From Brachionus manjavacas (lineage: Eukaryota > Rotifera > Eurotatoria > Ploima > Brachionidae): 64,000 bases of DNA. The notes under the pieces were generated by a model. The model saw only the letters and a list, made by a program, of their open reading frames with translations. It did not search any database and was not told the origin of the DNA. The position numbers were made by a program, and so were the translations under genes. Below, piece after piece: positions 8,120 through 14,100 of the stretch (positions within the stretch are counted from its first letter, which is position 1; every line of letters starts with the position of its first letter). The stretch spans positions 1,178,001 to 1,242,000 of the forward strand of contig JAHQIY010000017.1 in NCBI GenBank assembly GCA_019054805.1. The letters are read 5' to 3'.

Positions 8120-11100
8120 TTAATTTTGATTTTTCTTTTTTTTTTCTTTTAGATACAATGTTGCTTTTAAGAATGGTTTTACTTTCAATGATGTGTCATA
8201 GTGGTCTAAACTCTTTTTTATTTTTTGTTCAAAAGAATTTGTTTGTTGAAAATAGTCAATTGCTCTTATTTCATTTAGATTTTCTAATTCATTTGCCTTT
8301 ATCTTGATAAACAAAGAATTTTTTCCATTTACCTTTAAAAAAAAAGTTAAACAAAAATAATTTTATTTGAGAATGCTCACATTTAGATTTAAATCTAACA
8401 TCCAATTTGAATCAATCTCAGGCCATTTTTGCTCAACAATCATTTTATTCTAAAAATTGAAAATTATTTAATACTAGTTTAAATTGTTTAATTTACTAAA
8501 TCAAAATTGTCCTCTAGAAATTTGTTCTTTTTGATTCTGCTCCAACATTCGCTTGTAAAATGAGGTATAACTGGAGAGGCAATTATTAATGTTTCAACTA
8601 AAAGTTTATAAAAATCCTCATCATATTGTTCAACTGAATATTTCTTAAATTCAAATATTATTTAATAATTTTTTTTTATTCATAATACTAATAAAACCAA
8701 CTTTTAGAAATTTAATAATTTTTGAAAATGCCACTAAATATGATGGTAAATTAAAATTTTCATTCAGATTATGATTGATCTAAATTTAAATTTAAATCAG
8801 AACTTTTTTTTTTTTAAATCTTTACCATCGATAACTGAGAATTTCGAACATGATATAACTCATTTTTCAGACCTGATATTTTTTGATCAGTATTATTCCT
8901 CTTAATTAAATTGTTCGTTTCTAATTCTTCACAAGCTTTTCCAACTAGCTCCCACAATTTTTGAAATATTCCCATTGTTCCATTAACCATATCGCTGGAC
9001 ACTAGAATGGAAAATAAATTTTTTTTTAACAAAAATTTGGCATACATATAAAATTTCTGTCTGATTTTGGATGAACAAAGCTAAGCAAAAACAACCTTGT
9101 AAAATCAACTCCATATTTTTGAATCATGTCTTGAGGGTCAATACCATTTAGCTTAGATTTGCTCATTTTTTCAAAATCAACTTTAAGTTCTTCGTTTGTT
9201 TGACTACAATAAAATTTATCATTTTTTTCTACAACATTTTGAGCTTGGACATAACGACCATTTTTTGTCTTAAAAGTTTCACCTTTGACCATACCCATGG
9301 CAATGAATCTTTGAAATGGTTCTTTGGTCGGCAATTTATTCAAGTCATACAAAAAATGACAAATTAATCGTGATACAAATAAATGAGTCATTGCATGCTC
9401 GACCCCTCCGATGTAAATATCAACAGGCATTTCTTTCATGGCCACTTCAGTTCTAAAAGGTTCGTTTTGATTCTCACAGTCCAAGTACCGTAAGTAATAC
9501 CAAGAAGAATCCATAAATGTGTCCATTGTATCTGTCTCTCTAACTGCTGGACCTCCGCAACTAGGACATTTTGTATGATGCCAACTACTTTTTTTTAGAT
9601 TTTTCTGACTATTTTCCATCTTTGGCAATTCGACTGGCAACTGGTTGTCTGGTACTGGAACTACCTAAACATATATAATACTTAATCTAAATTTTAACTT
9701 AAATAAAAGATTCTGATGGTGTTTTTTTTAAAAATACCAAAAAAAAAAATATTTATTCATTAATTTCATTACCTCACATTTGTCACAGTACACAAGAGGT
9801 ATGGGGCATCCCCAGTAGCGTTGTCGAGAAATACACCAGTCACTCAATCGATCACTTGTAATGTGTCCGCCTCGATTAACTTTTAATAACTCTTGACAAG
9901 CGACTTTTTTAGTTTTATTACCCCAAATTTTGAATAAAATACCCCAAATTTTTAATTTTTTACCCCTATTTTATTAAGATAACACCAAAAAATAAAAAAG
10001 AAATTAAAAAAATAAAATGACAATTTTATTTTATAATCGACACCAAATTAATTATAAAAATACCAAAATTAATAAAAATGAACTATTTTATTATTTTTAA
10101 CCCCAAAAATTTAGTCGAATTCAGAGCATACTTACCCCAAAAATTTACTTTTTTCCACATTTATTTGAGCAAGCCCAATATCTTCTTTTAGTCATTTTAG
10201 CGCCACATTTATCACAAAACTTTTCTTCGACTTGTTTGATTGAATCAATTCGAGGTATTTTTGATGGATTTTCTTTTGTCGAACTCGAATCTTCATCATC
10301 TGTATCAATCCCTTTAGGTGCCGAATTTGTTGCTTGTGTTTCTTTCGGTTGATGTTCAAGTGGTCCAGCTGTGTCTTTTGGCCTTCCTTTCTTTCTATTG
10401 GCTTGTATAGGTATATCCATACCAACTGAGTCGAAATTGCATTTTTTTTCTTGCTGCAATAGTTGTAAGATGATAACATTTGTAATTTTTTAACCAATAC
10501 CAACAATTGCAACTACTCAAAAGTCCAACTATTTTCATTGAATTTAATTTTACGAATACTAAAAATGGAAGTAATCATATGATCGAATGAAAACCATTTT
10601 TTTCAATTAATGACTGATTGTATTGTTTACATTGTTCTTTGTTGATATCTATCTTGTCATCAGCAGTTAAATAATAATAATTATCATCTTTCAAATGAAT
10701 AATTGTTTTGTTATAACTGTTCCATTTATAAGCTTTTACTAAGTCATCCTTTTTAACATTTGGAAATTCATAAAATATTTTTTGATTTAAGTTGTCAACG
10801 ATTTGAGGCTGATTTGTTTCTGGATCAATCAATGATAATGTAGGTGCACGTTCAGTTGACCATTCTTTCAAAATATTATCTCGACATTCGTTTAGAAATG
10901 GAATCAAACCAAAACGTTTTGAATTTAAAATTTTCTTGATTTGAGCATGAGTTGACTCTAATGAATTGCTTGTACTTGGTAAACCAGGTGCAAAGCCTTC
11001 ATACCAACCATTATTTCCATCTTTGCACCATTGATTATCGAAATACTCTAAAAATGTTTTGATGGCTGGACTATTGACTCTTGACCATTTTTCTTGAAAT

Positions 11101-14100
11101 AATTTAAGAGCTCTTGAAATAATTCTGGCTCAAAAATTTTTTGAATTTCGCTTATATCGTAGACAATTCGTTCTGCTTGTAATTTGCTAATTGATTTTAC
11201 ACGAATATCAATATTACGATTGACGTGAGCCCAACAATTTACTCTTGTTTTTAAATCGAATACTTTTGCAAATCCGTTTGTGATAGCACCAGCATTATCT
11301 GCTATTAAAATTGAAAAAATTAACTGTTTTGTTAAATACTTTTTCATGTGTTTCTTTGACTGAGTTGAAAAAAAAACCGAAATCATCTTCATTTTCAGTA
11401 CGACATATAGCTAATCCGAACGGATGAAAACTTTTATTACGATCAGTTGTACCACCTGTAATAATTGGAAAATTTTCATATGTTAACTTGTACGTAGCAT
11501 CACTCAAAAAATGTTGAGCATTTTCTGCGATTTTAATTAAACGTTTTGATGTTAAAAACACTCGAAAAATTTGTGATGGCATGGCAGCATATTCAAATTT
11601 CCCAACGAAAACCGCGTCTTCATCGTCTGGAATCTCTTGAATTATCTTCGCACCATTTTTTGAAATCTGTCAATGAACAATTTTTATTTAAGTCCTTACT
11701 AACTGAATTTATAATATGTTGAATTTGATTGTCAGTTGGTGGCTGAATATTTTCTTTGATTAAATTTCTCTTGATTTCTTTTTTTGCTTGTCCAAGCGAA
11801 CGAAAATAAATAATTTTTTCTTTCACTTTAGGAGGAACATTAGCTGAATTTTCTTCGTTCGAATGATTTGAATGTTCATTGTCTGATATATAGACTGAAC
11901 CACCAATTTCACCATTTTTGACTTTGAAATAAATTGATTTTTTGCAGCCTTTTTTGTTGAATTTGCAGTTGAATGTATGTTTATCGCAATCGGCTAGGTT
12001 ATTTTTTGAATGAAAGTTCCATGCTACATTGTCAAAATGTAAATTTTTGACCAATTTTTTAAATTCCATTAAAGATTCACAATCTTCAAGGAAATCGTAC
12101 GCTTTAGATACGCTTCTTTTTATTTTCGGCAATTCTTCAGCGTCATTTAAGGTGTCGTTGAAATTATTTTCTAAAATACTCGCAGAACTAGACATTTAAT
12201 AATAATCAATACACATTTTAGCAAGCTGAATTTCTTATATAGGAATATTTTTTAAATATTTATTAAAAAAGTGTCAAAAAAATTTAGGTTTCATTTTAAT
12301 AAACTAGAGTTCGTTTTAATTAATTAGGTGTAGTTTTAATTGATTTAGTGTCAAAATAAAAGAAAAAGTAACATCTTATTTAATTAGGTGTAAATCTTAA
12401 TTTTTTATGGTTTACTTAATTAAAAGGGGTATTTTATTAAAAAATTGGGGTAAAAAATTTTAAATTTGGGGTATTTTATTCTAAATTTATGGCCTAGATA
12501 TTAAAGAGCCTTGACAAGCTGACTTGAATGCATCAGATAGGTTTTGTCCATTAAACTAATAAAAAATTTTGATATTTTTATTTAATAATTAATTTAGCTT
12601 TTACTTTGTCCGAATTAATTAATTTTTCATTTTGTAAAATATTTTTAAATTTAAGACCTGTTTTTGTGGCGAACTCTCTTTCGTTTTGATCAAAACTTGG
12701 TATGCCCAATTTTGCATCAACATAAGGTACACCTTGAGAGTTCAAAGTTCCGAACTCGGACTCATTTTTAAGATAAATTGGTATTTTTTCTCCTGTAAAT
12801 GGATTCACAGCTTTACAGGGAAGTAGGTCGTTTTCTTCAATAACCAAATTTAAATTCTATAAAATATAATTTTTTGAAAATTTAATAATTTATATTTTTT
12901 TGGAACAACCTTTAGAATTAAATGATTTTTATTGATATTTATATGCGAAATTCCGTATAATCCCTGTGGAGTTTCTGTGAAAACTGACAAAGTAGATTTT
13001 TTTATTGAATTATCTTCATACTAAATCAGGCTAAAAAATAATTGCTAAAAAGTTTCATTTTTTTATACCTCTAAATCAAAGTCAATAAAGCACCCATTAC
13101 AATTTCCTATCCACATTTTCTGAATATTTTTCACTATTTCCCAATCATCAGTGCTCAAGGTGTCCATTGAATCCATCAGAGACTAGGTTTAAAATGAAAT
13201 ATATCCTAAATTGAATTTTTTTAAAGCATACTTTGGCGTAAGCAGATGATTTAATGAACCATTGCTTAAGTATTTTTTTTTCAACCTGCGCACCAGATCG
13301 CCACGATTTGCCATTTTCATCTATTTGTTCATTAGCTAGAACAGTCTTATCAACTGGATCCCAATTGACAAGAGCCTTAGGTAAAATTAAAGATGTTATC
13401 AAATGGGTCTATTGCATTATGTGACCATTGATCACGCGTTTTAGGCAGATTCGTTCAAAAGCCATAAAGTCTATTTTTTTAAATAAAATTTTATCTATTT
13501 GAAAAATTATAGTTTTAAGCCTTTTTGTCTTAAAATAAAATTACTCCCAACTTCAAATATACAAGTCTTAACCCTGCAAAAAACCTAAAAATTGCCTTTT
13601 TTACTTTTGCACAAGTCTGATTTTAGGTGATTATTTTAAAACAATTCAAGTTACTTCTTTTTTAAAGACAATCCCTTTTTGATACATTTGTAAGAAAAGA
13701 TATTGAGTCCATTTATAATACGATGGATTGCATGTAGATAATTCCTAATTTAACAAAAAATAGATTTAAAAAATTAAACTTCTAATTTAATTTCCAACCC
13801 GATTCCAATCAAAACTAAATGACAATTCTTTGAGTTGATTCTTCATGTACTCTACATTGCTGAAAAAAAATTATTTACCCCTAATTAATTAAATTTTTTT
13901 TCGAACCTCTCAGTCCATTTATCAGGTTCAATATTTCTTTCTATAGCTAAAATACAATTATTTATTATTTGATTGAATTATTTTTTTTTAAACCAGCATT
14001 TTCTGCAGGTAGACCAAAGGAATCAAATCCGATCGGATTGATGACATAAAATCCTCTCAGACGATTATATCTAGCTAAAACATCATTCAATGTGTAAACT

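Follow-up and report, generated by a model that had tools for sequence, protein, structure and literature searches.

A Mutator-like element inside a coding exon of the mitochondrial leucyl-tRNA synthetase gene of the rotifer Brachionus manjavacas

Background

Mitochondrial translation is normally essential; how, then, can the assembled genome of an animal display a DNA transposon in the middle of a coding exon of its mitochondrial leucyl-tRNA synthetase (LeuRS) gene, LARS2? This question is raised by a 64,000-nt stretch of the Brachionus manjavacas assembly GCA_019054805.1 (114.17 Mb in 61 contigs), G000:C17:1178001-1242000, hereafter the window, whose positions are used throughout. Here, a Mutator-like element (MULE) of 2,609 bp splits exon 11 of LARS2, as an earlier note on this DNA had proposed. 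The kind of event is ordinary (a MULE insertion), whereas the place is unusual, i.e., an exon coding for part of a normally essential enzyme, whose gene had no second nuclear copy in our searches of the assembly. The insertion was undescribed in the titles and abstract openings listed on rotifer Mutator elements, Brachionus assemblies, Introners, MULE duplications and LARS2. Our results suggest that it is recent and probably a heterozygous or subclonal loss-of-function allele, displayed in a collapsed assembly.

Results

The interrupted minus-strand gene is, judging from its sequence, the mitochondrial-type leucyl-tRNA synthetase LARS2. Among the matches listed, the top ones are animal mitochondrial LeuRS of bacterial type, and the first of the 120 listed for a 705-aa query is the LARS2 of Brachionus calyciflorus (76% identity). 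Taken with the transposase relatives described below, this match makes the organism very likely a monogonont rotifer near Brachionus, and the 76% speaks against B. calyciflorus itself. In addition, the HLGH (HIGH-type) and KMSKS sequences, which we take to be the class Ia motifs, are both present. The N-terminus, which may serve in mitochondrial targeting, is basic and hydrophobic and aligns with that of the B. calyciflorus protein (P0001, 865 residues, the reference for our spliced alignments). The bacterial type, the motifs and this identity are common to the window gene and known LARS2, from which the former departs by an exon 11 split by an element. When an intact conspecific LARS2 was sought with a 346-aa query, none of the best 120 of 7,997 scored proteins carried the name Brachionus, the top identity (86% over 57% of the query) being to an unnamed protein.

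When the site was closed at the duplication, residues 1-853 of the 865 of P0001 were aligned with 619 of 850 identical and no stop codon. A short exon (8779-8702) is not in P0001 and has a counterpart in the related protein P0002 (comparison by eye); with this exon added, the model has 17 exons and 877 aa (2,634 nt including the stop), and it contains neither an internal stop nor a frameshift. Exon 11 without the element measures 165 nt and reads in frame with one duplication copy counted. Since the 17-exon coding sequence is undamaged in this way, any loss of LARS2 function should be recent or masked. The insertion point, 21 codons upstream of the conserved SRQRYWG block, falls within sequence that is variable among the 14 other LARS2 proteins aligned (P0003, which forced long gaps, and P0004, both of an earlier set of 16, were omitted). 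Read through unspliced, the predicted LARS2 product ends after 411 aa, seven codons inside the element, and it comprises neither the SRQRYWG region nor the KMSKS loop. Note that intron 6 of the gene (13376-13654, 279 nt) includes a fragment of an interspersed repeat (~13477-13617), for which the genome has over 20 other partial matches.

Copies of the element were collected from the best 40 of 220 candidates scored, so that all copy numbers given here are lower bounds; among the loci L001-L020, 17 were measured, L014 was without one end, and L017 and L020 were other views of L016 and L015. The sequence CTTGACAAGC is present at both 9892-9901 and 12510-12519, as the earlier note had seen, whereas the 10-bp duplication deduced from it does not stand. 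Indeed, the base after the terminal ...AAAGAGC is a C in 17/17 copies, and the next nine bases match the nine bases before the element. Because the duplication is exact over 9 bp in all 17 copies once this C is counted as part of the element, we place the element limits as in Table 1 and read the duplication as TTGACAAGC, the tenth base being the last C of the element. Target-site duplications of MULEs are about 9 bp long (8-11 bp). The terminal inverted repeats have outer tips that are less alike than their 48-nt best-matching arms. The transposase fragment of the window copy reaches 25 bits for the MULE domain, below the Pfam cut-off, while a sister copy (L002) has a single 539-aa frame with PF10551 at 32.1 bits (E 1.6e-7, cut-off 27.6). 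Among the matches listed, this transposase has relatives in B. calyciflorus, B. plicatilis and Rotaria. In an alignment of L002 with 11 relatives, the residues of the MULE catalytic motif (D, D, E, with a CxxH) were found as follows: the first D in 11 of 12 rows, the second D and the CxxH in all 12, and the E in 10, the two missing rows being gaps in P0123 and P0147. With its transposase domain, terminal inverted repeats and 9-bp duplications, the window element shows no essential difference from other members of the MULE superfamily (PF10551).

Table 1. Features of the interrupted LARS2 locus (window positions)
Feature	Position	Strand	Basis or remark
Mutator-like element, 2,609 bp, transposase in same sense as LARS2	9902-12510	minus	sister copies, duplication
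Target-site duplication copy 1, 9 bp, TTGACAAGC	9893-9901		exact in 17/17 copies measured
Target-site duplication copy 2, 9 bp, TTGACAAGC	12511-12519		exact in 17/17 copies measured
Terminal inverted repeat, left arm, best-matching 48 nt	9925-9972	plus	92% complementary to right arm
Terminal inverted repeat, right arm, best-matching 48 nt	12441-12488	minus	pair I2
Transposase gene, several frames here through private one-base indels	10578-12195	minus	frames, sister copies, PF10551
Second element frame, C-terminal zinc-ribbon-like stretch	10148-10489	minus	below Pfam cut-off
LARS2 start codon	14447	minus	17-exon model
LARS2 5' part: exons 1-10 and first 45 nt of exon 11 (12555-12511, one duplication copy included)	12511..14447	minus	spliced alignment to P0001, 17-exon model
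LARS2 3' part: remainder of exon 11 (9892-9773) and exons 12-17	8120..9892	minus	spliced alignment to P0001, 17-exon model
LARS2 exons 12-17	9664-9046, 9001-8826, 8779-8702, 8643-8497, 8449-8381, 8332-8120 (with stop)	minus	
Hypothetical GT-AG intron removing the element, +2 aa; donor in duplication, acceptor AG 2 bases inside element end	9904-12515	minus	spliced alignment

The family holds at least 13 full-length copies at different sites, which differ by a mean of 1.23 and a maximum of 3 substitutions per pair (78 pairs). Relative to L002, L004 and L010, the LARS2 copy is free of substitutions, one variant being common to all four, and a transposase frame of 539-544 aa is present in 5 of the 12 full-length sisters. 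Because these copies are near-identical and five sisters retain a frame of at least 539 aa, we conclude from the sequences compared that the family has moved recently in this rotifer lineage. A rearranged copy with its left end repeated and a gap in mid-element was also seen (L015/L020, C13:730451-733152), as was, among the matches listed and outside the measured set, at least one short derivative on C23.

The coding context of the 17 measured sites was compared using a codon score at the joined site. It was 12.7 at LARS2 and at most 3.9 at the other 16 sites (background taken from the flanks of those 16), or 11.0 and at most 4.4, respectively, with an independent background. In the calibration, 34% of 300 LARS2 exon positions scored 4.4 or less, and 5% of 600 other window positions scored 14.5 or more. 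LARS2 is thus the only measured site with a coding score; exonic sites may nevertheless be among the other 16, and these negatives are weak because the score misses about a third of LARS2 exon positions. The length of the spanning open reading frame was dropped as a coding test, the LARS2 site reaching only 69 aa compared with up to 74 aa elsewhere.

Altogether, the earlier note fares well on structure. Its Mutator-like element in a coding exon of LARS2 agrees with PF10551 in the sister copy, the inverted repeats and the exon 11 alignment; its in-frame exon 11, with one copy counted, returns as 165 nt without a stop; and its 17-exon, 877-aa model was recovered with the same figures from the P0001 alignment plus the short exon, the remainder of the gene being free of decay over 2,634 nt as it had said. 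A 'very recent' insertion, one of the possibilities it listed, is well supported by the near-identical sister copies, and heterozygosity, another of them, is probably the likeliest.

It had also suggested compensation by a second gene copy or by dual targeting of the cytosolic enzyme, and neither gained support. DNA searches with the two LARS2 halves (26 and 3 candidates, all scored) gave a full-length match at the window locus only, and a protein search of the assembly gave strong LeuRS matches only there and on contigs C21 and C43, the weak matches being other synthetases. A second nuclear LARS2 therefore does not appear to be present among the sequences of this assembly. The LeuRS genes on C21 (1.22 Mb) and C43 (249 kb) were considered as nuclear back-ups and rejected, these contigs being bacterial in character: both genes are bacterial-type and intronless, the sampled stretches have a GC content of 0.31-0.33 and 0.46-0.47, respectively, and 86-99% of their length is open frame versus 24-70% at 10 nuclear loci (a partial sample centred on synthetase genes). 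C21 carries several class I tRNA synthetases (gene names by eye) and is perhaps a symbiont; the base composition of C43 is unlike that of C21, and it is perhaps another bacterium. As for the cytosolic enzyme, the gene on C1 looks, from its sequence, like LARS1, and in the contiguous sequence its upstream frame is open for just 21 codons before the start with no ATG, although an unseen 5' exon is possible.

DNA searches of the assembly with the element and the LARS2 halves did not find an empty allele. The 8.7-kb stretch adjoining LARS2 matched short repeats only, with no second long match (best 40 of 478 candidates). Since this neighbour is unmatched at length, an alternate haplotype of the region seems to be missing from the assembly, which could therefore not display an empty allele.

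Elsewhere in the window, an Rfam RAGATH-11 RNA match was found at 332-451 on the plus strand (106.6 bits, gathering score 79.4). Two tRNA-Val(AAC) genes lie near each other on the minus strand (17387-17460 and 18275-18347), and short near-identical matches to them recur genome-wide. Two minus-strand frames at 61842-63887 resemble, by eye, integrase and RNase H parts of an LTR retrotransposon.

Discussion

Chance is not a sensible explanation of the locus, since the duplications are exact in 17/17 copies and the LARS2 frame is restored to the base. We favour, with some confidence, a recent insertion that created a loss-of-function allele, probably heterozygous or subclonal, in a collapsed assembly. 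A cut-and-paste MULE cut exon 11 with a 9-bp stagger and inserted itself, as shown by its boundaries, the duplication, the restored frame and the near-identical sister copies. That allele is thereby broken, since its product, read through, would stop after 411 aa. Mitochondrial translation is normally essential, and the searches gave no further nuclear enzyme of this kind; the animals therefore most likely have an intact allele hidden by the collapse of the assembly, the insertion being heterozygous or carried by part of the clonal culture. If they reproduce mostly by parthenogenesis, a recessive null allele of this sort could be maintained. In addition, the LARS2 copy has five private one-base indels, the most of the 13 full-length copies (the other 12 have nine in all), and no private substitution (five in all in the other 12), while the exons around the element have no frameshift, as far as can be told from a gene model, in which an indel next to an exon boundary may go unseen. 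As real decay would bring substitutions too, these indels are suggestive of consensus errors from thin coverage, as if part of the reads carried the insert. Allele collapse is also plausible because, according to PMC6555955, the assembly is about half the holoploid genome size in 3/5 clones of the B. plicatilis complex.

Several points weigh against this explanation. L013 has four private indels, so that consensus quality varies for other reasons as well. The same paper gives a low k-mer heterozygosity for B. plicatilis complex clones (0.055-0.412%), next to 1.66% in B. calyciflorus (PMC6555955). Finally, a homozygous insertion would equally leave no empty allele in the assembly, LARS2 then being lost, or replaced by an imported cytosolic LeuRS or by a copy absent from the assembly. 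The presence of a LARS1-like gene on C1 also fits this alternative, which we nevertheless hold to be improbable, given the short upstream frame of LARS1 without an ATG, the second nuclear copy that was searched for and not found, and the undecayed remainder of LARS2. An assembly artefact, in which the element came to lie in LARS2 through a chimeric join or the misplacement of a repeat copy, has in its favour that high-identity repeats often cause misjoins and that the LARS2 copy is the richest of the 13 in private indels; however, a misjoin is not expected to yield an exact 9-bp duplication at the family termini together with a base-exact frame, and we consider it very improbable.

The earlier note had listed splicing among its possibilities, and an in-frame route does exist on paper. 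The element would be removed as an intron, leaving an mRNA that is in frame and longer by two codons (F and A), so that the insertion would be tolerated, possibly in the homozygous state, and an intron gained. Indeed, the uncut window aligned to P0001 picks 12515-9904 as an intron, in frame and without stops (score 3218 versus 3243), and five more in-frame routes bring the total at this site to six, one of which adds 20 aa with a better donor (3.6). The insertion site also lies in a variable stretch ahead of a conserved block, and, in PMC9860276, Introners are reported to combine duplication and transposon splice sites with small in-frame gains; on this model, a duplication GT and an element AG would frame the window element as an intron of that kind. 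In contrast, the placement is no better than chance would give: counting GT-AG routes within 80 nt of each junction, 87% of 2310 LARS2 exon positions had an in-frame route for an element in the same orientation and 26% had one that altered the protein length by no more than 2 aa, the values for the opposite orientation being 99% and 57%. For the 2-aa route, the donor score is -0.8, below those of all 15 real donors, which range from 1.2 to 7.2 when each is left out in turn, while the acceptor (2.7) is inside the real range, 3/15 real acceptors being lower; with an earlier matrix, built on 10 introns, this donor had scored 1.3 and this acceptor 0.2. Moreover, the introns of the LARS2 model measure 44-279 nt versus 2612 nt for the element-removing intron, and, unlike in an Introner family, none of the other 16 measured sites scores as coding (with about a third of exon positions missed by the score). 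The window element thus departs from Introners by its weak donor, its 2.6-kb length with a transposase of its own and the lack of any other measured copy that scores as coding. The 2-aa route may be possible and is not favoured, and we regard removal of the element by splicing as unlikely; that an autonomous-type MULE has been caught becoming a new 2.6-kb intron of an essential animal gene, with two amino acids added and through a duplication donor and an element-end acceptor, seems more doubtful still. Two further routes were rejected: taking both GT and AG from the two duplications leaves an in-frame stop on reading and is not among the six in-frame routes, and skipping the whole of exon 11 keeps the frame (165 nt, phase 0) but loses the conserved SRQRYWG block.

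Whatever its zygosity, the locus testifies to the recent activity of a MULE family in a rotifer. It is also a concrete example of a young transposon within the coding sequence of a gene that is normally essential and for which the searches gave no second nuclear copy. If the element were spliced, the locus would represent the birth of an intron from a DNA transposon in an animal. Under the favoured explanation, that of a probably heterozygous or subclonal null allele, the persistence of heterozygous null alleles in a largely parthenogenetic animal becomes testable.

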